36,621 bases of DNA from NCBI GenBank assembly GCA_030704845.1, contig JAUYKZ010000023.1, positions 78,262-114,882 of the forward strand, read 5' to 3'. The notes under the pieces are model-generated. The model saw only the letters and a program-made list of their open reading frames with translations, made no database searches and was not told the origin of the DNA. Position numbers and translations under genes: made by a program. The DNA is from an archaeon (GTDB lineage: Archaea; Nanobdellota; Nanobdellia; Woesearchaeales; GW2011-AR9). Below, piece by piece: positions 1 through 15,726 of this stretch (its first letter is position 1; every line of letters begins with the position of its first letter).

Positions 1-972
1 AGGTGTGCCGCACAGGGTAGTGGAGGGATAGCCGGAAGCACAGAGGTCGTCGACGGCGACATTGGCTTCTGTTGCAACAGCGACCTCTCCAACAACTGCA
101 ACACGTGGCGTGATACACCCACCGGGATCCACGATGTAGTGAGTATTGGGAATTAGTGAACCAGTGATGCCCCGCATTACGCCTGCAACGGAAAGGGTAC
201 CATCCGCTATAGTGAGGACTGGGCCTCCAGAATTTCCCTTGAAGTTGTCCAAGTTGGTCGCGAAGATTGTACCCAAGTCGGCAGTAACAAGACCATCGCG
301 GACGACCTTCGCTGGCACCCCGTCAGGACTGCCCACGAGAGACACGACGGAACCTTGATTGACTGAGCGCGAGAGAACGGGCGCGGGAGCATGCTGTAGC
401 TCGTCCTCGTTGCGGTCAATTCGAATAAAAGCGAAGTCAGCGCCAGCATCATTCCGGGACTGCACGACGGTTGTGCACCGGTACGCATATCCCAGGATCG
501 GGGCCGCTACCGCATCGTTCGCGTTGTAGTAGCCAAAACCAACTATCGCATCCGCGCAGGATACGTTGTCGAAGCAGTGCGCGGCGGTAAGAACTAGATC
601 CCTGTCGACGAGAACTCCTGAGCAAAACGCAGCGGCCTTCTGTCCACGGTAGGGCGCGCATACAGCCAAGTCACCGAACTCTGACTGGAGTTGAACCTCA
701 AGAGTCCACGAATTGCGAATCCAGTTGTTGGCATCAGCCGCAGGGTCCCACAAATGAATATCCTGCAGCAGCGTGACCGCAGACTCATCCATGAGCCGTC
801 GATGCGGATCATTGACGGGTAATTGCCAGTATTCTTCGCGAGAGTCACGACCGAAGAGAAGTTGCGTTTCACGGGCGCGAGGCCCCTCAATGGACTCGGG
901 CTCAGGCGCGCAGCCACCGATTAACACCGATCCCGAGAGGGCAAGCAGTGTAGAGACGCAGATCGATCTCAT
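1..972 (-). CDS. Trypsin-like (S1) serine protease, predicted lipoprotein, 3' end cut by window
   Basis: The reading frame is open from an ATG at 972 through the left edge, giving 324 codons with no stop, so the C-terminus is missing. A hydrophobic N-terminus ends in a lipobox (LIGGC, Cys21), so the mature protein should be exported and lipid-anchored. All three S1 catalytic positions are visible: TAAHCF with His132, an Asp at about 179 (ADFAFIRID) and GNSGGP with Ser248. Several Cys pairs suggest disulfides. The start is supported by GGAGG about 8 nt upstream. The distance from the N-terminus to His132 is long, so there is an extra N-terminal segment of unknown role. It sits on the GC-rich element and is transcribed away from the small membrane gene at 1084. 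Substrate unknown. It could be a secreted effector or a surface-processing enzyme. Confidence 0.85.
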   Translation of the reverse strand, partial: MRSICVSTLLALSGSVLIGGCAPEPESIEGPRARETQLLFGRDSREEYWQLPVNDPHRRLMDESAVTLLQDIHLWDPAADANNWIRNSWTLEVQLQSEFGDLAVCAPYRGQKAAAFCSGVLVDRDLVLTAAHCFDNVSCADAIVGFGYYNANDAVAAPILGYAYRCTTVVQSRNDAGADFAFIRIDRNEDELQHAPAPVLSRSVNQGSVVSLVGSPDGVPAKVVRDGLVTADLGTIFATNLDNFKGNSGGPVLTIADGTLSVAGVMRGITGSLIPNTHYIVDPGGCITPRVAVVGEVAVATEANVAVDDLCASGYPSTTLCGTP

Positions 973-1051
973 GAGTCCACCCTCCATCCGATGTCAAGCT
1001 AGTCGTCACTCGCCAGAACGTCAAGGGGCATGGCAGAGATCAGCATCGGTA

Positions 1052-1060
1052 GATTTAAAT
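1052..1060. promoter_or_regulatory. TATA-like box between divergent genes
   Basis: The AT-rich block GATTTAAATAGG stands out in GC-rich DNA. Its centre is about 28 nt before the ATG at 1084, the archaeal TATA-to-start distance for a leaderless mRNA. The TTTAAA core is self-complementary, so it could also serve the protease gene on the other strand. Confidence 0.5.
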
Positions 1061-1083
1061 AGGATGTCCCCTTGCCAGGCAAC

Positions 1084-1335
1084 ATGACTCTGAAGCCTAC
1101 CGTTGACAAGGTGATTGTGACGATGATGTCCGCCGTCCTGGGCCTGCTCTTGGGTCGGCTCGGGTTTTGGTGGGAAATTGGCCCAACCAGCCTTGCAGGT
1201 CAAGCGAGTGAGGATTCTATTCTACGAATTGCGATTGTTGTTCTACTTCCAATCGGTGTCTACTTGTTCTGGAGCTACCTTGTCGAGCAAGAGCAGCCGA
1301 CATCAATGTCACCCCCTTCCCGACAGCAGCCCTAG
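1084..1335 (+). CDS. Small two-TM membrane protein, copy A
   Basis: Eighty-three residues with two hydrophobic segments (about residues 8-27 and 45-64) joined by a short loop; no known family recognised. The ATG at 1084 is chosen because the TATA-like box lies about 28 nt upstream. It resembles the product of 1638-1910: both have a GLxLGR motif after the first hydrophobic stretch, then PTSLA, and both end in the same eleven residues. The shared tail arises because both genes run into the same 248-bp repeat. Its last 27 nt overlap the oppositely oriented helical gene at 1309-1548. Convergence with a partner, repeated twice, suggests a functional gene pair of unknown role. Confidence 0.55.
   Translation: MTLKPTVDKVIVTMMSAVLGLLLGRLGFWWEIGPTSLAGQASEDSILRIAIVVLLPIGVYLFWSYLVEQEQPTSMSPPSRQQP
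1298..1311. promoter_or_regulatory. Palindrome CGACATCAATGTCA, site 1 (parS-like or operator)
   Basis: GACAT and ATGTC arms around a central CA. The same 13-mer occurs at 1873 and, on the other strand, at 6062 upstream of the parB-like gene. Three copies inside 6 kb of a ParB-encoding element suggest a binding site, either a centromere or an operator. This is inference. Confidence 0.4.
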
Positions 1336-1545
1336 CGCTTCCAACTTCAGCTCGATCTTCCGTAGGTTCTTGGCGATGCCCTTCACGTCGTTAGCGCTTC
1401 TACGGGCCCTTTCGATGTACTCGGCAGCCGTTACTCGCGAACCAGAGTTGAGGTAGCTCTCCGCTAGCTTCAACCAGTTGCGCGTGTGGTCTTCCGTAGA
1501 CCGAAGCAGAGCTTCGTAGTGGGCGAGCTTCTCTTCGAATCCGAG
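1298..1545. repeat. 248-bp direct repeat, copy 1
   Basis: Matches 1873-2120 with about eight substitutions by eye. It starts exactly at the palindrome CGACATCAATGTC and ends within the 5' part of the small helical gene. All the differences I could place are synonymous in the minus-strand protein. Confidence 0.9.
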
Positions 1546-1548
1546 CAT
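1309..1548 (-). CDS. Small helical TPR-like protein, N-terminally altered copy
   Basis: Seventy-nine residues, almost wholly helical, with a TPR-like stretch (NWLKLAESYLNSG then AAEYIERARR). From Gly3 on it is identical in amino acids to the protein at 1884-2153, but the N-terminal segment of that protein (VKKEIGLTLGR) is absent here. The ATG arises where copy 1 reads GAGCAT and copy 2 reads GAGTCG. Unlike copy 2, it is not joined to an upstream operon. All eight nucleotide differences from copy 2 are silent in this frame, which argues that both copies have been under selection as protein. It overlaps the 3' end of the convergent membrane gene. Confidence 0.6.
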   Translation of the reverse strand: MLGFEEKLAHYEALLRSTEDHTRNWLKLAESYLNSGSRVTAAEYIERARRSANDVKGIAKNLRKIELKLEALGLLSGRG

Positions 1549-1604
1549 CCCAGGGCGACAAGACCAACGGCCACGAGATATCGGCTCACTCTCGACCTCG
1601 CGAA

Positions 1605-1615
1605 AGTATTATATA
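1605..1615 (+). promoter_or_regulatory. Archaeal TATA box for 1638 gene
   Basis: GTATTATATAC lies 23-33 nt before the ATG at 1638, in otherwise GC-rich DNA. The spacing fits a leaderless archaeal transcript. Confidence 0.6.
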
Positions 1616-1637
1616 CAAGACAAGCCTATCTCGTATC

Positions 1638-1910
1638 ATGGTGGACATTCAAGGGGATTCTGTGACTAGGTGGACAGTGCTCGGCGGGTTAGTCTTCGGG
1701 GTAGTAGGCCTTTACCTTGGGAGGCAGCTAACGCCCACGTCACTGGCATGTATCAACCCATACCTTTGCCAGAATATCATGTCGGTAAGCGTGATTGCGG
1801 TCTTCGTCACAATTGTCGGTGCCGCTATCACTTGCAAATGGCGGATGTCGCGCCTGCTGCAAGCTGGCGACGCGACATCAATGTCACCCCCTTCCAGACA
1901 GCAGCCCTAG
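1638..1910 (+). CDS. Small two-TM membrane protein, copy B
   Basis: Ninety residues with two hydrophobic segments (about 14-32 and 49-66) followed by a basic patch (CKWRMSR) that would face the cytoplasm. It is a divergent relative of the product of 1084-1335: the order of hydrophobic segment, LGR, PTSLA and second hydrophobic segment is shared, and the last eleven residues are identical. The start is the ATG about 27 nt after a TATA box. The 3' end overlaps the convergent helical gene by 27 nt, as in copy A. No family recognised; a membrane anchor for the helical partner is possible but unproven. Confidence 0.6.
   Translation: MVDIQGDSVTRWTVLGGLVFGVVGLYLGRQLTPTSLACINPYLCQNIMSVSVIAVFVTIVGAAITCKWRMSRLLQAGDATSMSPPSRQQP
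1873..1886. promoter_or_regulatory. Palindrome CGACATCAATGTCA, site 2
   Basis: Identical to site 1 at 1298 and the reverse complement of the core of the site at 6062. It marks the exact left end of repeat copy 2 and lies inside the coding end of the membrane gene. Confidence 0.4.
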
Positions 1911-2120
1911 CGCTTCCAACTTCAGCTCGATCTTCCGCAGATTCTTGGCGATGCCCTTCACGTCATTGGCGCTTCTGCGAGCCCTTTCGATGTACTCGGC
2001 AGCCGTGACTCGCGAACCAGAGTTGAGGTAGCTCTCCGCTAGCTTCAACCAGTTGCGCGTGTGGTCTTCCGTAGACCGAAGCAGAGCTTCGTAGTGGGCG
2101 AGCTTCTCTTCGAATCCGAG
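1873..2120. repeat. 248-bp direct repeat, copy 2
   Basis: Second copy of the repeat at 1298-1545. The two are 575 bp apart, start to start, so the duplicated unit is one convergent gene pair. Confidence 0.9.
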
Positions 2121-2153
2121 TCGTCCTAGGGTGAGCCCAATCTCCTTCTTCAC
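1884..2153 (-). CDS. Small helical TPR-like protein, full-length copy
   Basis: About 89 residues. The likely start is the GTG at 2153, which overlaps the stop of the upstream gene as GTGA and implies translational coupling; an upstream TTG at 2171 is also possible. The protein is helical, with a TPR-like helix pair in the middle and a basic amphipathic helix (KNLRKIELKLEAL) near the end. It is the last gene of a four-gene operon that runs from 4997 to 1884. Its C-terminal 76 residues equal those of the copy at 1309-1548. It probably acts with the coiled-coil membrane protein encoded just upstream. Confidence 0.65.
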   Translation of the reverse strand: MKKEIGLTLGRLGFEEKLAHYEALLRSTEDHTRNWLKLAESYLNSGSRVTAAEYIERARRSANDVKGIAKNLRKIELKLEALGLLSGRG

Positions 2154-2677
2154 TTCCTGCGCGCCCACCAATCGCGGATGTTGCTCGACTCCCGACGCAA
2201 CTCGCCGTACCGGCCGACATCGAGGCGCTTAACCCGCTCGGTCATTTGTTGCAGGTCTTGGATATACGCCATGAGGGCGTCGTCCTCGGCCGACAGGCTG
2301 CGAAGCGCCTGCCGGGCTTGGGGGACCGCGTCTTCGCCATCCCGGAGAACAAGCCCGTGGAGATTCTTGAGGGAGCGCTCCATGCTCCCGGCCGTGCCGA
2401 TCTCTTCCTTCGCCCGCTGTTGGAACACACTGGGAGCATGATGGAGGGCTGAGAAGAGCATCATCAGAAGAACGCTCCCGAGAATGAGGACGCCGATTGC
2501 GCCAGCAGTTCTCCCGAAATCGCGGTAGTGCATCGTGCCGACGGTGAGGAGCGCAGCCGCAGCCACCGAGAGGAGTCGCCCTTGAGAGCCTCCAATGCGA
2601 CGGCCAAGGCCGGCATAGCTTAGAGCCAGGAAGATGATGAAAACGAGTCCATATGCGACAAGGTCGTCAGGAATCAA
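2150..2677 (-). CDS. Two-TM membrane protein with cytoplasmic coiled coil
   Basis: A 175-residue protein with hydrophobic segments at about residues 8-24, 36-46 and 58-78, followed by about 95 charged helical residues that look like a coiled coil and end in DWWARRK. No known family recognised. The start is a TTG at 2677 that overlaps the TGA of the upstream gene (TTGA), preceded by GAGGTG about 5 nt upstream; no ATG lies early enough to keep the first membrane segment. Its own stop overlaps the start of the next gene. Such tight coupling suggests the operon products form one membrane-associated assembly. Confidence 0.65.
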   Translation of the reverse strand: MIPDDLVAYGLVFIIFLALSYAGLGRRIGGSQGRLLSVAAAALLTVGTMHYRDFGRTAGAIGVLILGSVLLMMLFSALHHAPSVFQQRAKEEIGTAGSMERSLKNLHGLVLRDGEDAVPQARQALRSLSAEDDALMAYIQDLQQMTERVKRLDVGRYGELRRESSNIRDWWARRK

Positions 2678-3141
2678 TCACGCACCTCAAACAGGATTGG
2701 ACCGTGCTTCTTGACGGCCGCCTTCAAAGTGTGGATTGTCTCTGCAAGCTGTTTGCCCGCTGGAGTGAGGCGGATGAAGCGTTTTCCGCGTTTCCAGCTT
2801 CGCTCAATGTAGCCCTCCCGCTCGAGGCGGGTCAAACTCCTGGCTCGGAGGAACTGAAGGTCACTCAGGGGAAGACACCCGCTCACGATATCATCGACCG
2901 ACCTGGAAGCCCACCCGATCCCGTTCCTTGCGTACCAATTCCGTCCCTGGACCATGTGCTCAGCCGGCACGAGCCCAGTCGATATCGTGGCATGTCCGGT
3001 CGGCGTTGTTCGCGGAACGTACCCAAGGCGAACTTTGTGCCATGCCTGCAGGGCAGATAGCGGCAGTCGGCGCCTCTCCTCGCTGAATGCAGAGTAGGAG
3101 ACTTGGTCGACTATGAGAAGGGCGGACCGTCTATTTTGCAT
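2674..3141 (-). CDS. Phosphodiesterase-like N-terminus joined to a winged helix
   Basis: A 155-residue protein. Residues 7-70 resemble the start of the type I phosphodiesterase/alkaline phosphatase superfamily: a hydrophobic strand with Asp12 (LLIVDQ), then TTPTGHATISTGLVPAEH (45-62), the segment that normally holds the nucleophile. The rest of the roughly 300-residue catalytic domain, with most metal ligands, is absent. Residues about 91-135 look like a PadR/MarR-type winged helix (LTRLEREGYI, then RFIRLTPAGKQLAE). The ATG at 3141 is 8 nt after the upstream stop; a TTG at 3186 is an alternative. It may be a regulator that uses the phosphatase fold as a sensor, or a decayed fusion. Catalysis looks unlikely. 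Confidence 0.55.
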   Translation of the reverse strand: MQNRRSALLIVDQVSYSAFSEERRRLPLSALQAWHKVRLGYVPRTTPTGHATISTGLVPAEHMVQGRNWYARNGIGWASRSVDDIVSGCLPLSDLQFLRARSLTRLEREGYIERSWKRGKRFIRLTPAGKQLAETIHTLKAAVKKHGPILFEVRD

Positions 3142-3149
3142 GCACGTGA

Positions 3150-4997
3150 CTAGTCGAGAAGTCGGTCCAAGCCGTGATAGTAACAAAGGTACTGATGCAG
3201 CGGGGCTAGTAGCTTTGGAGCAGCTGCCCTCAGCGTCAAGGTACCACTTGACGATGAGTCAGACGGTTCGCCGGCGAGAACTGCCGCGAGTTCGTCCTCC
3301 AGCAATCTCCGGTCCTCGTCATCCACAGCAATCCCGGAAACGTACTCCAGAACCACAGCCTTCGTGAGATAAGGAAATCGTGTGGCAACGTCGCTGCGAG
3401 AAGGCCTATGCTCAAGCCACGCCTCGATTCCTTCAGCAAGCGCGGCTACGACACATTTGTACGGGCGTGGGTCGCCCATAGTGAGAAGAAGTCGATCAGG
3501 AGGCTTCGGGGCGGGCTCGGGAGCTCGAAGCATCTCCCAAGTCGCAAACCACTCTGCATAATGGGTGGCTCCTGCGAGTTGCTTCACCTCGAAATCAGTG
3601 AGGCTCGATGCTGCGCTCGGTTCGTGGCGTCGAACAGATTCCCCCAACTCTCCTTTCAGTGCTGGCAGGTTCGATGTGTCGGTTGGTAGTGTTGTCATTT
3701 CTCTTGGTGTAGATCGCTCTGACTGCGCCCTCTCGAGTCCAGCACGCAGAGTATCTATAAAAGACTTCCGGTTCGAGACTTCGTCAAGAGCTCCCCATGA
3801 GACCGTCGGTGGCACGGGCTCGTAATCGAGGAAACCCCCACTGGCCGCGGTCAGGCCGGGCCGTTCGTGGCCGAGTGCACGCGTGACGAAATCGACGATG
3901 GCAGGTCGAAATGGATCTCCCTCAGTCGCGCTGATGTCGACTAGACACGCATTGGCCTCGGCGTTTCTGCCTGTCGCTCGATAGGTTCGAGCAAGACCAA
4001 GCAATGCCCTCGTGCGTAGTCGTGGATGCGAGCAGCAGCGCTCGAACCAATGCTCAGTGTAGGTGACGTCCCGCTCGGACGGCGGACCCGATGTGCAGAG
4101 AATTGAAACGTAGCCAAGGTAGGCGCGCATCAGCTTGCACAGCGACAGCCCGCGGAGAACATTCATGATCCGGAAGCCGCGCTCCGCCTCAGCCAAGTGA
4201 GTTGCGGCCCTCTGCAGCGCGGGCCATGGTTCCTCCGAGCCGATGGCATCCCACGCGTTGAGAAAACTCAGGTGCTTGTGACGGAAGGACTCGAAGAACC
4301 ATCCTTGTGACAAACTTGGACGAAATGCATCCTCGGCTTCACGAATAGCCCGTAGAAGGGCTTCCTCGTTGCCGAGCGGCGGTGCGCCAGCCTCGATGGG
4401 CAGCAGCAGCTCCAGAAACTCGCAGGGAGCGCTGCCACGATAATGTGAGATCGCAGCCTGCTTCGGATGGTAGTCCATCGACCCGCCGGCAAACGGTCCT
4501 AGGCACTCTTGCGCCCACGCGAAGTGGCCAAGGTAACGGAGGTAGTTCGCAATCTCGACGGCGAGATTGGCACAGTCTAGGATAGTGATCCTATCAATGA
4601 ACTCAAGGCCCAACTCAGTGGCCTTTTGCAGTGTGGTGTGCGCGCGCTCCTCTTGTCCCGCGTGCCTTGCCGTGTAGGCAACCCCAATCAAGGCGTCTAC
4701 CCGAGCGCTAGGGTGGGCCTCCCGCAGATCCGCGAGTTGTACAAGTTCCCTACCGACTCCCAGCGAATCCTCGTGTTGGTCGAGATAAGTGCAAATCTTG
4801 GTCGCACGCTTCCCGGCCTTTGCGGCGAGCCGGCCGCCGTGCACGGGCGACGTCATTAGCTGGCGTGCGGCCATCAATGCGCCTTCAAATGAACGAGACC
4901 TGGGGGACAGATCGGCCTCCGGCAGACACCACGGAGTCTGGCTATCCCCCAACTTCGCGTGGATGGACTGCTCAAGAGTGGTGCAGAGGGAGGGCAT
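3150..4997 (-). CDS. Large helical (TPR-like) protein of unknown function
   Basis: A 615-residue protein, first gene of the 4997-to-1884 operon. Residues about 40-360 are rich in helix pairs with TPR character (for example RTRALLGLARTYRATGRNAEANACL near residue 330). The C-terminal third contains a low-complexity, Pro/Ser/Thr-rich linker and then another helical domain ending in LLAPLHQYLCYYHGLDRLLD. No signal peptide, membrane segment or enzymatic motif is visible. The gene follows an ATG without a strong ribosome-binding site. By context it could be the scaffold of the operon's assembly. Function unknown. Confidence 0.6.
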   Translation of the reverse strand: MPSLCTTLEQSIHAKLGDSQTPWCLPEADLSPRSRSFEGALMAARQLMTSPVHGGRLAAKAGKRATKICTYLDQHEDSLGVGRELVQLADLREAHPSARVDALIGVAYTARHAGQEERAHTTLQKATELGLEFIDRITILDCANLAVEIANYLRYLGHFAWAQECLGPFAGGSMDYHPKQAAISHYRGSAPCEFLELLLPIEAGAPPLGNEEALLRAIREAEDAFRPSLSQGWFFESFRHKHLSFLNAWDAIGSEEPWPALQRAATHLAEAERGFRIMNVLRGLSLCKLMRAYLGYVSILCTSGPPSERDVTYTEHWFERCCSHPRLRTRALLGLARTYRATGRNAEANACLVDISATEGDPFRPAIVDFVTRALGHERPGLTAASGGFLDYEPVPPTVSWGALDEVSNRKSFIDTLRAGLERAQSERSTPREMTTLPTDTSNLPALKGELGESVRRHEPSAASSLTDFEVKQLAGATHYAEWFATWEMLRAPEPAPKPPDRLLLTMGDPRPYKCVVAALAEGIEAWLEHRPSRSDVATRFPYLTKAVVLEYVSGIAVDDEDRRLLEDELAAVLAGEPSDSSSSGTLTLRAAAPKLLAPLHQYLCYYHGLDRLLD

Positions 4998-5103
4998 TAG
5001 GCCGTCGCCAAAAGTGTTGAGGCTAGACTACCACTGCCCTGAGTTGCGATCAACCCTGCTGAAAAATCGTTCCGGAACAACCGGTTACATCATTTACAAC
5101 ATT

Positions 5104-5997
5104 CTACATCCCCTCGACGAACTCCAGCACCCTCTTCAGGTCGGCAACCAGAGCCTCGCGCTGCTTCGGCGACATGCTGACGTCGATGGAGATGGGGCGG
5201 ATGCGGAGGGACTTCTGGCCCTTTTTCTCGCTCTCGACGAAGAATTCGATCTTCTTGTTGACGGCGGCCTTCTCGACGCCCTCCTTGAGCATCTTGCTCA
5301 GCTCGATGTAGCTCGGCTTGACCTCCTTGATGCGGTCCAGCCAGTTCTGCACCTGCGCGGACGTGAGCTTGTACTTCTCGGCGTGCTGCATGAGGCGCAC
5401 GGCGTTGGTCGAGTTCACGGCTCCCGAATCGACGGCATCCTGGAGCGCCTTCGGGAACTCGACCAGCTTCTGCAGACGCTGACGCTGGCGGGACCCGATG
5501 TTGAAGATGGTCTCGATGTCCTCGTTGGTCTTGCCGGTCTTCTTGTACGCGAGCATGGCGTAAGCCCGGTCGAGGTCGGAGTAGCTCTTCCTGACCTCGT
5601 TCTCCAGGATCGAGATCCTGAACGCCTGCTCGTCGGTAATCTCGTTGCGGACCACCGCACTGAGGCTCGTCCAGCCGAGCTGCTTGATGGCCGTCGCCCG
5701 CCGGAAGCCGGAAACGACCTGGTACGTATCTCGCCCGGGGACGCGACGCACGAGGATGGGGAACTGCTGGCCCTCCTTGGCGATGCTCTCGACGAGGTCA
5801 CCGACGCGCATGTTCACGCGGAAGCGGTAGGTCTCGTCTTCGAGATCGATGCTGGATAGCGGCAGATCCTGCACGTTTCCACCGGGCGGCAGAATCTCCT
5901 GGACCTCCTTGGGTCTGTTGCTGGCCTCCGCCGGCGGGGGCAGGCGATTATCAACGCGCTCCGTGGGCGCCTCGGGGGCGATCTTCTTGCGGGCCAT
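5104..5997 (-). CDS. parB: ParB/RepB/Spo0J-family partition protein
   Basis: A 297-residue protein. Residues about 42-135 form the ParB N-terminal domain: LPLSSIDLED, then FPILVRR and GFRRATA (97-103), the equivalent of the GERRxRA nucleotide-binding motif, then LENEVRKSYSDLDRA. A helix-turn-helix region follows at about 150-205, then a charged C-terminus. The ATG at 5997 is chosen because GAAGGAG sits about 7 nt upstream; an in-frame ATG-like start 39 nt earlier lacks this. No parA is visible in the window, so it may lie outside or the protein may act alone. Three copies of a 13-nt palindrome on the element, one of them upstream of this gene, are candidate binding sites. Confidence 0.85.
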   Translation of the reverse strand: MARKKIAPEAPTERVDNRLPPPAEASNRPKEVQEILPPGGNVQDLPLSSIDLEDETYRFRVNMRVGDLVESIAKEGQQFPILVRRVPGRDTYQVVSGFRRATAIKQLGWTSLSAVVRNEITDEQAFRISILENEVRKSYSDLDRAYAMLAYKKTGKTNEDIETIFNIGSRQRQRLQKLVEFPKALQDAVDSGAVNSTNAVRLMQHAEKYKLTSAQVQNWLDRIKEVKPSYIELSKMLKEGVEKAAVNKKIEFFVESEKKGQKSLRIRPISIDVSMSPKQREALVADLKRVLEFVEGM

Positions 5998-6061
5998 GAC
6001 AAACTCCTTCACGTTTCGGCTTGGACTTTCCTGCACTGAAACGACGGCGTCAAGTGAATTG

Positions 6062-6075
6062 CGACATTGATGTCG
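6062..6075. promoter_or_regulatory. Palindrome CGACATTGATGTCG upstream of parB, site 3
   Basis: Six-base arms CGACAT/ATGTCG around TG. It is 65 nt before the parB start, between that gene and its probable TATA box (TTAAATAT, 6111-6118). This placement fits autoregulation by ParB. Confidence 0.45.
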
Positions 6076-6138
6076 GAAAAATGAATTGATCGGGCCTTGA
6101 GCGAAATGATTAAATATCCCCTGAATCTCGTTGGCAAT

Positions 6139-6716
6139 ATGATAATTTCAATCACCAAGGAACGCCTCTGGTTCCTCTACCACGTGGCAGGCATGTGGAT
6201 CGCGTAGTGAGTGGCGCCATGGATTTTCGCGTCGGTCCGATTGCCGATACACCGGAAAGAACCTATTCCATTACCGGGGTCGTGTTTCACGAAGACTATC
6301 ATCGCTCAGAACAGATGTCGAACGACATCGGGATCGTATATTTGCAGCGAGACTTCCACCTACCGCCGATGGAGTATCCTACTTCTCGGTTGTCCGATGA
6401 TAGTTTGGTGGGGGCCACCCTAGAATTCGTCGGGTACGGATACAACCTCAATTCCAACCAACAAGAGATCTCAGTTGGTGTCAAGGCCAGCGTCAAGATG
6501 AGGGTCGCCAAGGCCGATGCGACCACATTCTCGTACTCGGAGGAAGGCAAGAATACATGCAACGGTGACTCTGGCGGTCCGGCTTTTCTGGCCAATGGGG
6601 CCGGTAAGATGGTGGTTGTGGGGATCACGTCATGGGGTGATCTATTGTGCACGCAATTTGGTGTCGATACACGTGTCGACGCCTTCGCTCAGTGGATTTC
6701 CCAACGATTGCGCTAA
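6139..6716 (+). pseudogene. Truncated, decayed trypsin-like serine protease
   Basis: From the GTG at 6195 the frame encodes 173 residues with an S1 Asp motif (NDIGIVYL) and an intact NGDSGGP Ser motif, followed by GITSWG. The catalytic His segment is missing from this frame. In another frame an ATG at 6139, 24 nt after a TATA-like box, encodes MIISITKERLWFLYHVAGMWIA and then a stop; WFLYHVAGM looks like a damaged version of the LTAAHC-VAG region. This suggests loss of the first barrel's N-terminus plus a small deletion and a frameshift near 6200. The upstream 80 nt are AT-rich. If translated from 6195 it would be an inactive pseudoprotease. Confidence 0.6.
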
Positions 6717-6735
6717 CGTAGACCCTCGTGACGCG

Positions 6736-6987
6736 TCAGCGAGATTCACTGTTATTACGGAGTTGTGGTTGTCCGTTCTGCCTTGCCACTTCCTTCGCCA
6801 GCTGCTGTAGCAATCCCTTGTCCCTCTTCAACAAGTTAGATAAGCCACGATCGTCGATCTCGCCTTTTCGGAGAGTCTCGTTCTCCTGCTTGAGACGCTG
6901 CAGTTCATCCCGCATCTCCTTCTGCTCGTCACGAGCGTTGGTGTCGATCCACCTAACGATGACGTCGAGGGCGAGGAAACGGAAGAC
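6736..6987 (-). pseudogene. Remnant of a second tyrosine recombinase
   Basis: Translated on the minus strand, the block reads VIVRWIDTN and then directly ARDEQKEMRDELQ, continuing through the same coiled-coil tail as the integrase at 7820-8995. Relative to that protein, residues about 152-334, which hold all catalytic residues, are deleted exactly in frame. The C-terminal end differs (QNGQPQLRNNSESR instead of QNQRL). An in-frame stop lies just upstream and there is no start codon. It is evidence of an earlier or tandem integration of a related element. Confidence 0.75.
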
Positions 6988-7116
6988 TTAAGTACTTCAG
7001 TCGCATGCCAGTATCTACCGGCATCCGAAAGAGAGCCGGCGGTGGATTCGGGGAACACTCGACCATTTGACGTGGTGGCTCCGGATGTGAGACCATCTAT
7101 ATGGAGGTGGCACTAC

Positions 7117-7521
7117 ATGAACGCGAATATTGTTAAGATCAACTACACTGTTATACCGAGCGAACTGGAGATCTATCGTTTGGCCCTGTTGGGTGACGAT
7201 CTGGACACGGCCGGTCGTGCCAGGGCCATCAGCGACCTGGCACGAGGTTTCCAGAGCGAACTTCTGGAACTCTGGGATCGCTTCCCTGATGCTGCATTCG
7301 TCGCGGTACGATACGACAAGCGCCTAGCCGCCTTGGGACCCGATGAGGAGTCGGTGATCGGTGCGCTCGCGCGTCGCTGCGGAGACGTCTGGGTCGACTA
7401 CATCGATCATCGTCTACCAGCGGTTTACGCCCCTGACTTCCTCGTCACCGCGGACGACATCAGAGAGAGTCACGAGGCGCTGAAGGAGTCGGACGCCGGC
7501 AAGACGATTCGGCTCTTCTAG
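7117..7521 (+). CDS. Unknown protein paired with a RelE/ParE-like toxin
   Basis: A 134-residue acidic protein. The ATG at 7117 is chosen because GGAGGTGG lies 8 nt upstream. No family recognised. Its C-terminus (about 110-134, TADDIRESHEALKESDAGKTIRLF) is a short helical, charged tail of the kind antitoxins use to wrap their toxin. The next gene starts 2 nt after its stop and resembles the RelE/ParE fold, so by position this is the likely antitoxin or immunity partner. It lacks an obvious DNA-binding domain, and at 134 residues it is longer than most RelB/ParD antitoxins. Confidence 0.55.
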   Translation: MNANIVKINYTVIPSELEIYRLALLGDDLDTAGRARAISDLARGFQSELLELWDRFPDAAFVAVRYDKRLAALGPDEESVIGALARRCGDVWVDYIDHRLPAVYAPDFLVTADDIRESHEALKESDAGKTIRLF

Positions 7522-7523
7522 CT

Positions 7524-7760
7524 GTGTGGCGCCTCGAGATTCGTCAGCGCGCAGGTGACGTGCTCCGCGCATTAGGACCCTCTGCCCGTAACCGGGTATG
7601 GATTCTGGCTGTTGATCCTTTGTCAGGCCTGAATGGTGGCACGAACCTTGGTCGCATCAGAATCGGCGGGTTCTTCTTCGCGCGCTATGTGGTCGACAGG
7701 AACACGAGACGAGTGATCATCTACAGAATCGAATACCTGTCGCAGATCTCAGCTCGCTGA
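7524..7760 (+). CDS. RelE/ParE-like toxin candidate
   Basis: A 78-residue basic protein starting with GTG two nt after the preceding stop. The pattern WRLEIRQRAGDVLRAL, then RNRVWILAVDPL, then GRIRIGGFFFARYVVD and VIIYRIEYLSQ follows the RelE/ParE secondary-structure order: a strand, two helices, then strands with the conserved basic residues and a final strand. The match is by eye and moderate. In this family the product is an mRNA interferase or gyrase poison. Toxin-antitoxin pairs often stabilise integrated elements, which fits the location next to the integrase. Confidence 0.5.
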   Translation: MWRLEIRQRAGDVLRALGPSARNRVWILAVDPLSGLNGGTNLGRIRIGGFFFARYVVDRNTRRVIIYRIEYLSQISAR

Positions 7761-7819
7761 CGAAGTAGTCGCCCGCAGGCAGGGACATAGGACGACGTTG
7801 CGGTGATTGTCGCTCGGAC

Positions 7820-8995
7820 TCACAATCTCTGATTCTGCCTCGCCACTTCCTTCGCCAGCTGCTGCAGTAGTCCCTTGTCCCTCTTCAACAAGTCAGATAA
7901 GCCACGGTCGTCGATTTCGCCAAGGCGCAATGTTTCGTTTTCCTGTTTGAGACGTTGCAGTTCATCTCGCATCTCCTTCTGCTCGTCACGAGCTTGCACC
8001 AGTTCGTCCTGGCGAATTCTCCTCATGGTCTCCTCGGAGACTACGCCGGTTCTATCAATGTAGCGGTCCGGCATATCGGAGCTCATCGTCCAGCCCATCC
8101 ACTTGCAGAGCTCGTAGCGGCCAACGCCCTTCGATGCCAGCCAAGTGGCACAACTGTGCCGAAGAACATGGGGAGAAATGCGACGGCCGATGATCTTCTT
8201 CGAGTACTTCGCAACCACGTTGAGCATGGTGCTGTATTTCATGACGAAGAGTGGCGTGTCCTGCTCGTAACGACCGGGATGTTGAGAAAGCCACTCACGC
8301 AGGTACTTCGCGGCTCGGTAGACGACAATCGTCCGCGGATAGGTCTTGCTCACCTCGATACGGACGCTGAAGTAGTTTCCGCGGTCTTCGAGATTTCTCA
8401 GCCTGATGTTCAACATCTCTTCTGCTCTTGCGCCAGTTTCGAAGAGCATCGCGAAGAGCGCCTTCGTCCGAACAGTGGGCGAGAAGTCGACTAGCCGTTC
8501 GACCTCTTGGAGCGAAATCGCCGGGATCTCGACGTCCTCGACATTGGTGTCGATCCACTTGACGATGGCTGGGTATTCTTCGTTGTTACCAAGTAACCAT
8601 TTATAGAATTTCTTGAGAGTGACCTTGAAGTCGTGGAGCGACCAGCTTCGATACTTGCGGAGACGTACATTGCCCCACTTGTCCGGGTAGTAGAGCTGGT
8701 TCGCTTCAATGCGCCTGATGAGACTCTCCATCTGGTCCTGGGTCGCGGTCTCGAAGTCCGCGCCGAGCCAGTGGGCAAGCTGTTTCAGTGTCTGAACGTA
8801 CTTCAGAACTCGCCCATTCGAGATCTTTTTCTTTGCTCTCTTGAGAACTGTCTTGCCAATCAGGCAATCGTTGGCAAACCGCTTGATCAACTCGACGCTT
8901 CGCGCCGGGATGCCCAACTCGTTGCGCTGCAGACAGTCCAGCGCCCACTCGAGACTTCTGCCAGTTTCGTGTACATCAATCTTGTCATCTCCCAT
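7820..8995 (-). CDS. Archaeal-type tyrosine recombinase (integrase) with coiled-coil tail
   Basis: A 391-residue protein that catalyses site-specific recombination. Residues about 35-140 form a SAM-like core-binding domain. The catalytic residues are visible: Arg190 (TGARAEEM), Lys217, HVLRH (His276, Arg279), Trp302 (GWTM) and Tyr312 (MPDRYID). The GW..SSDMPDRY signature is typical of archaeal viral and plasmid integrases. An added C-terminal coiled coil (about 335-391) is unusual. The gene begins 83 nt from the 3' end of tRNA-Glu and has the same orientation, so the tRNA 3' end is the likely attachment site. The upstream neighbour pair looks like a toxin-antitoxin module. Confidence 0.9.
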   Translation of the reverse strand: MGDDKIDVHETGRSLEWALDCLQRNELGIPARSVELIKRFANDCLIGKTVLKRAKKKISNGRVLKYVQTLKQLAHWLGADFETATQDQMESLIRRIEANQLYYPDKWGNVRLRKYRSWSLHDFKVTLKKFYKWLLGNNEEYPAIVKWIDTNVEDVEIPAISLQEVERLVDFSPTVRTKALFAMLFETGARAEEMLNIRLRNLEDRGNYFSVRIEVSKTYPRTIVVYRAAKYLREWLSQHPGRYEQDTPLFVMKYSTMLNVVAKYSKKIIGRRISPHVLRHSCATWLASKGVGRYELCKWMGWTMSSDMPDRYIDRTGVVSEETMRRIRQDELVQARDEQKEMRDELQRLKQENETLRLGEIDDRGLSDLLKRDKGLLQQLAKEVARQNQRL

Positions 8996-9077
8996 AGTTC
9001 AACCTCCGCACTGGAGCACATAAAGGTTGAGCCGGTCAGGAAGCTCGATTCAATGTTGTCACTTTGGAGTGAAAGGC

Positions 9078-9189
9078 TGCCCCCGCCGGGATTTGAACCC
9101 GAGTCACTGCCTCTCTTCAAAAGAAGAGCTTAGAAGCTTGCTTCTTGCGTGAAAGGGCAGTATGATAGTCCGGACTACACCACAGGGGC
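9078..9189 (-). tRNA. tRNA-Glu(UUC) with a 37-nt intron; integration target
   Basis: Seven acceptor pairs form between GCCCCTG and CGGGGGC (one T-G), with discriminator A at 9078 and no encoded CCA. The anticodon stem CTGCC/GGCAG encloses a loop with TTC at 34-36. A 37-nt intron sits between positions 37 and 38, the standard archaeal site; removing it leaves 75 nt. The T arm has GTTCAAATC. The 3' end marks the sharp change from GC-rich to AT-rich DNA, and an integrase gene lies immediately beyond it. Confidence 0.9.
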
Positions 9190-9230
9190 ATTAACCACCT
9201 AGAAATATAGCCCTTTAAAAACTTTTCCAC

Positions 9231-15472: not shown

Positions 15473-15522
15473 GAGATTTTAACTAAGAAAACCTTTTAAA
15501 CATCACTTCTTCCCTTGTCATT

Positions 15523-15726
15523 GGCCCCATAGCTTAGCCTGGTAGAGCGCTGGTCTTATATGACCGTTAATGGTTCAAAGAATTTAATGCCATTAATTGC
15601 TTAGACAGCCAGAGGTCCTGGGTTCAAACAGATGTCACGTCATCTGAAAGACGGAGCGACTTCGCTAACGCTTAGTCACTGAGTTTCAGGAGATAGCGTG
15701 AATCTTTGAGATTCCCGGTGGGGCCA
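15523..15726 (+). tRNA. tRNA-Ile(UAU) with two introns, one in the T-loop
   Basis: The acceptor stem GGCCCCA/TGGGGCC (15523-15529, 15719-15725) is followed by discriminator A15726. The D stem is GCTT/GAGC and the anticodon stem CTGGT/GCCAG (15550-15554, 15608-15612). The loop reads C-T-TAT-A, giving anticodon UAU. Intron 1 is 15561-15606 (46 nt, position 37/38). The T stem CTGGG/CCCGG is split: TTCAAA ends at 15628 and the stem resumes at 15714, giving a second intron of 84 nt (15629-15712, about position 59/60). Exon TCAAA can pair with TTTGA at 15705-15709, as in a bulge-helix-bulge. Mature length is 74 nt. Confidence 0.85.

Follow-up and report, generated by a model that had tools for sequence, protein, structure and literature searches.

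The 36,621-nucleotide stretch of Woesearchaeales DNA analysed here (the window) contains, at 15523-15726 on the forward strand, a tRNA-Ile(UAU) gene that, as judged by comparison with its relatives, is very probably functional and decodes AUA. Three known answers exist to the problem of reading AUA as isoleucine without reading AUG: lysidine or aminovaleramidine, agmatidine, and a tRNA with an encoded UAU anticodon. Read by eye and with a scripted parse, the gene yields a mature tRNA of 74 nt and is interrupted by introns of 46 nt at position 37/38 and 84 nt at 59/60. The original prediction had described this arrangement, and both the parse and the orthologs confirm it. The acceptor stem (GGCCCCA/TGGGGCC) forms 7 of 7 pairs, and the anticodon stem (CTGGT/GCCAG) and T stem (CTGGG/CCCGG) each form 5 of 5, with one U-G pair in each of these two. 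The cloverleaf carries UAU at 34-36 together with an Ile-type A73, the combination expected of an AUA-decoding tRNA-Ile3. The nearest layout in the same genome (1.02 Mb, 97% complete, 24 contigs) is that of tRNA-Ile(GAU) on L006, whose acceptor and D arm are almost identical.

The structure and conservation of the gene are established by comparison with other genomes. The closest relatives of the neighboring eIF2-gamma gene are found in Woesearchaeota and Nanoarchaeota metagenome-assembled genomes, at about 75-83% identity, and in 7 of 80 such relatives (L025, L027, L030, L031, L041, L049 and L066) the eIF2-gamma flanks hold the same tRNA gene. All seven have the same anticodon and the 37/38 intron, and five of them also have the 59/60 intron. 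A strict pattern, which specifies only the D arm and a Y-U-UAU-R loop and demands no intron, detects tRNA-Ile(UAU) in 144 of the 287 genomes of the order, compared with 1 of 287 for a reversed-pattern control; a somewhat looser pattern detects it in 230 of the 371 genomes of a phylum sample. All 144 places in the order were examined, one non-tRNA match of G266 being left out. The 37/38 intron is present in every one of them (140 parsed fully, 4 by eye) and measures 17-144 nt in the parsed genes; the four unparsed genes are omitted from the pairing counts below. Among the 140 parsed orthologs, A73 occurs in all and a T-loop intron in 54. By these counts the UAU gene is a conserved gene and not a curiosity, and a chance cloverleaf is ruled out by the orthologs, which keep the anticodon and the first intron site in many genera.

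When 31 well-assembled genomes of the order without a strict match were re-searched with two looser patterns, 12 more tRNA-Ile(UAU) genes appeared. A looser D-arm pattern recovered seven (six parsed, their introns measuring 28-48 nt, and that of L252 is also a true gene), and an anticodon-plus-intron pattern recovered the other five, including those of L271 and L272, which by eye have a D-loop intron. Some genes had therefore escaped the strict pattern because of an additional D-loop intron. Since such genes are missed by the patterns, and the parser allows at most one D-arm layout, the UAU gene counts are lower bounds. The L272 gene (1400-1650) has three introns, in the D-loop, at 37/38 and in the T-loop. 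In the class outside the order, 70 of about 114 listed places were examined; the 37/38 intron is present in 61 of the 64 genes that parse, and the six unparsed genes, omitted from the pairing counts, show it by eye. In L105-L248, tRNA-Ile(UAU) frequently has a tRNA-Glu(UUC) gene as a neighbor, at a distance of no more than a few hundred bases, and 48 tRNA-Glu genes were parsed.

Standard tools overlook the gene. ARAGORN found no tRNA in the window, and cmscan at the gathering threshold did not report 15523-15726, the sole tRNA reported in the window being that at 9078-9189. In a whole-genome Rfam search, the locus gave a match below threshold (21.1 bits, E 0.03) that covers the 5' part and ends inside the T-loop, as expected because the T-loop intron interrupts the gene. 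ARAGORN and Rfam at its cut-off both miss the gene, and the tRNA sets of these genomes are therefore under-counted.

The alternative route to AUA decoding, a CAU tRNA modified by TiaS, appears to be missing. Searches for TiaS (PF08489), in each of which four archaeal positive controls were matched, established its absence from the genome itself and from all 371 genomes of the phylum sample, and gave a match in 1 of the 287 genomes of the order. AUA is in use, at 117 of 547 Ile codons in the 20 open reading frames (ORFs) of the window right of 9.4 kb. The CAU tRNAs found in the genome are the initiator (L003) and one gene with D-loop and 37/38 introns (L016:1324-1489, also L020:1408), which is probably the elongator tRNA-Met. 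A strict CAU pattern, too strict even for the initiator, gave no match in this genome, and a looser one that requires an uninterrupted D arm gave eight, namely the initiator and seven that by eye lack a paired D stem. The original prediction had named a tRNA-Ile(CAU) together with TiaS, and no spliced product from this locus, as the arrangement that would speak against its reading; of these, TiaS is absent from the genome. The prediction had also treated encoded UAU anticodons as a rarity, which does not hold in this lineage: the gene is common in both order and phylum and TiaS is essentially missing from both, and across a large phylum this combination appears to be the rule.

Two other explanations of the locus must be weighed here. 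The gene could be a decaying tRNA copy, transcribed but unused, with AUA read by another tRNA; the Rfam score under the cut-off would suit such a copy, and splicing at the locus is something we infer. However, every stem pairs, A73 and the splice motifs persist in many genera, TiaS is missing, and apart from the initiator the genome has no CAU tRNA whose D arm is uninterrupted, which makes a decaying copy barely credible. It is also conceivable, though very improbable in our view, that AUA decoding still falls to a CAU tRNA, with C34 modified by some enzyme other than TiaS, and that the UAU tRNA is an extra. The single non-initiator CAU tRNA (L016:1324) could be either elongator Met or Ile2, and the aminovaleramidine used by bacteria without lysidine, as described in the available text of PMC11938285, provides a precedent. 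Yet an elongator tRNA-Met must exist, L016:1324 is the only candidate seen for it, and the UAU tRNA is retained throughout the phylum.

Both introns of the gene carry conserved splice motifs. For the T-loop intron, tRNA bases 54-57 (TTCA) pair with intron positions -3 to -6 in 52, 54, 54 and 45 of the 54 parsed genes on which the position test rests. All four pairs are present in 43 of the 54 genes at the true register, compared with 0-2 at slid registers, and the window intron has all four (TTCA/TGAG). An inner helix of at least 3 bp occurs in 47 of the 49 T-loop introns of at least 20 nt, where shuffles lead one to expect 26. The T-loop intron set thus has the standard bulge-helix-bulge form, a 4-bp central helix with 3-nt bulges that hold both splice sites. 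For the 37/38 intron, bases 32-35 pair with positions -3 to -6 in 138, 136, 133 and 106 of 140 genes; the window intron has three of these four pairs (C32-G, U33-A and A35-U), with a U34-U mismatch. The complementary segments CAGATG/CATCTG, which the original prediction had noted as structure within the 84-nt intron, are located at its start.

T-loop introns are known in archaea, according to the available part of PMC6379350, and the rarity implied in the original prediction does not apply to this lineage, given their presence in more than a third of the orthologs (the 54 of 140 above) and in five tRNAs of this genome. The five, named from their anticodons by eye, have 59/60 introns of 84 nt (Ile(UAU)), 75 nt (Asn), 42 nt (Lys), 34 nt (Asp) and 29 nt (Arg(UCU)). 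The prediction had also suggested a check for a broad-specificity splicing endonuclease, and here the evidence turned the other way. The presence of EndA (PF01974) is established as one gene in each of 21 genomes searched, this one included. The protein is nearest to the catalytic subunit of N. equitans and to M. jannaschii EndA; it aligns to the latter, a narrow-specificity enzyme, and has no counterpart of the insertion found near residue 35 in S. tokodaii EndA (2cv8). No second EndA subunit was found in the 21 genomes with PF01974, a search that a short beta subunit outside PF01974 would escape. A broad-specificity EndA, whether CSL-bearing or two-subunit, was rejected in view of the single PF01974 gene per genome and the lack of an S. 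tokodaii-type insertion. A narrow-specificity enzyme would also suit the T-loop motif, whose geometry is strict.

The 5' end of the 37/38 intron may have a further role. It is complementary to the 5' strand of the anticodon stem, and the pairs 32-i2, 31-i3, 30-i4 and 29-i5 (i denoting intron bases) form in 140, 125, 137 and 87 of the 140 genes. The pairs at 30-32 are all present in 124 of 138 UAU genes. Among 28 introns at 37/38 of other tRNAs in these loci, 15 of them from tRNA-Glu, just one shows all three. The covariation of this helix is established by several comparisons. In 13 genes, which come from nine families of the order, C replaces G at base 30, and 12 of these 13 have G at i4; in L156, with the stem CTCGG, all four pairs are compensated. 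Among 105 distinct rows, 87.9% of the cells pair, compared with 81.0% after shuffling, and 19 cells are double-changed, compared with 4.0 (sd 1.7) in shuffles, none of 500 of which came as high; slid registers gave lower values. When introns were shuffled among genes, 30-i4 paired in no more than 123, compared with the 137 observed. Folding the complete precursor of the tRNA gene at 15523-15726 to minimum energy likewise yields the fold-back helix. A second conserved stretch, approximately YG-N-TYYR-NN-CA, lies at i7-i18 of the 37/38 introns, its spacing from the 5' splice site being constant.

The fold-back helix and the splicing fold are mutually exclusive because both use C32, and the helix therefore suggests a pre-splicing conformation. 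We propose, tentatively and by analogy with eukaryotic systems, a reading that we favor but that has somewhat less than an even chance of being right: in this phylum the 37/38 intron of tRNA-Ile(UAU) may be a conserved cis-acting element, whose 29-32/i2-i5 hairpin would present UUAUA so that an enzyme outside the Pus1 family could modify U34 or U36, and would then give way to the splicing fold. Before splicing, the 5' end of the intron would fold onto anticodon-stem bases 29-32 and present U33-A37 in a six-base loop, and the arm would shift to the splicing fold only after the anticodon had been modified. As for the working of the gene itself, the transcript would probably lose both introns to EndA, a ligase would join the exons, and the spliced tRNA would accept Ile and read AUA, while U34 would have to be kept from reading AUG. 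An H/ACA or C/D guide inside the 37/38 intron was considered and dropped, as introns are as short as 17 nt.

The 5' end of the intron could instead be conserved for splicing only, with i2-i3 serving as inner helix and the match to 29-32 a by-product, an explanation that we regard as possible, with somewhat less than an even chance of being right. Base i2 pairs with -7 in 133 of 140 genes and i3 with -8 in 112 of 140, and both pairs are needed for the hBHBh' motif as given in the available text of PMC6379350; part of the conservation of i2 and i3 therefore belongs to the splicing motif. However, i4 has no comparable inner-helix partner: it pairs with -9 in just 53 of 140 genes and yet with base 30 in 137, including the 12 C-G for G-C exchanges. 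The recurrence of C30 with i4 = G across nine families also counts against this explanation, as does the finding that other 37/38 introns of these genomes, whose removal likewise depends on splicing, have the three pairs in one of 28 cases.

Several further observations, like the inner-helix pairs of i2 and i3, weigh against the proposed role of the intron or against the generality of the UAU route. The signal weakens outside the order, with 30-i4 paired in 48 of 61 genes and C30 accompanied by i4 = G in 10 of 17. Three genes of one family there (L286, L288 and L289) have no 37/38 intron, which makes them natural cases for judging intron dependence and means that outside the order the intron is no strict requirement. 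The Pus1/TruA family (PF01416), which modifies tRNA-Ile(UAU) in yeast, was found in none of 21 genomes, although 12 of 14 controls were matched, and Pus1/TruA was accordingly dropped as the modifying enzyme. Within the order, 143 of 287 genomes gave no strict match, and 19 of the 31 re-searched remained without one. Finally, G126 (L135; its UAU gene is L175) has a TiaS match (E 8e-46) alongside the UAU gene; this genome is 73% complete, and the match may represent contamination or late acquisition.

Encoded UAU anticodons have archaeal precedents. As far as the available text of two surveys goes, UAU genes were recorded only in Nanoarchaeum equitans and Korarchaeum cryptofilum among 167 (PMC6000648) and 217 (PMC8450103) archaeal genomes. 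In both organisms, as here, the encoded UAU replaces tRNA-Ile2(CAU), and the Korarchaeum UAU gene likewise has an intron whereas its GAU gene has none (PMC6000648). In contrast to these two cases, known to us by published description, the trait described here spans an order and a phylum sample and comes with a covarying element at the 5' end of the 37/38 intron and a frequent T-loop intron. Thermoproteales and Thaumarchaeota tRNAs also have bulge-helix-bulge introns at several positions, according to the parts available of PMC8450103 and PMC6379350. Unlike them, the Woesearchaeota-like lineage studied here combines a single PF01974 gene per genome with strict 4-bp cores.

Among eukaryotes, yeast tRNA-Ile(UAU) has a 37/38 intron on the same anticodon, and there the intron matters: the restraint of U34 rests on intron-dependent pseudouridines 34 and 36, as reported in the available text of PMC4090602. 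Unlike in yeast, modification in the archaeal tRNA is hypothetical, and none of the 21 genomes searched has the enzyme family that acts in yeast. In the red alga Cyanidioschyzon merolae, the action of Pus1 on a three-intron pre-tRNA-Ile(UAU) is under intron control (PMC9602550, available part); L272 matches this three-intron layout, and the algal Pus1 family has no counterpart in the 21 relatives searched here.

The coordinates of the gene are collected in the table. The left part of the window (1-9190) differs in composition, with a GC content of 0.52-0.61 compared with 0.30-0.39 to the right, and AUA accounts for 3 of its 82 Ile codons. A tyrosine integrase (7820-8995, PF00589) adjoins the tRNA-Glu gene at 9078-9189, which has a 37/38 intron, and ParB_N and trypsin-like ORFs lie further left. 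No repeat of the tRNA-Glu end was found within the window. The left part is either an integrated element or a misjoined contig.

Features of the tRNA-Ile(UAU) gene, in window coordinates
Feature	Position	Strand	Basis or remark
Presumed TATA-box-like element, ccttttaaac	15490..15499	+	by eye against the consensus; ~25-33 nt upstream of the tRNA
Exon 1, tRNA positions 1-37	15523..15560	+	sequence and scripted parse
Anticodon-stem 5' strand region	15551..15554	+	bases 29-32 = 15552-15555, pairing with intron i2-i5
Anticodon TAT	15557-15559	+	within exon 1
37/38 intron, 46 nt	15561..15606	+	scripted parse
Intron bases i2-i5 (GACC), complement of tRNA 29-32 (GGTC)	15562..15565	+	covariation; minimum-energy precursor fold
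Exon 2, positions 38-59	15607..15628	+	scripted parse
59/60 T-loop intron, 84 nt; terminal TGAG-AT opposite TTCA (54-57) as bulge-helix-bulge central helix	15629..15712	+	parse
Exon 3, positions 60-73, discriminator A73	15713..15726	+	scripted parse

For Woesearchaeota, a search confined to the open-access literature, and so excluding tRNA databases and papers behind subscription, found neither tRNA-Ile(UAU) nor the loss of TiaS nor T-loop introns treated in any paper. As far as our searches reach, three things are new within that literature: that the UAU gene and TiaS loss go together phylum-wide, how often the order has T-loop introns, and the covarying intron helix. How AUA is read as isoleucine without reading AUG is an old question, and the answer by a UAU tRNA appears to extend from two recorded archaea to a large phylum. 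The covarying helix offers a concrete and testable reason why small genomes retain the 37/38 intron, in parallel to yeast and C. merolae. If the proposed role of the intron is correct, archaea would have arrived on their own at an equivalent of the modification that, in eukaryotic tRNA-Ile(UAU), depends on the intron and acts on the anticodon.
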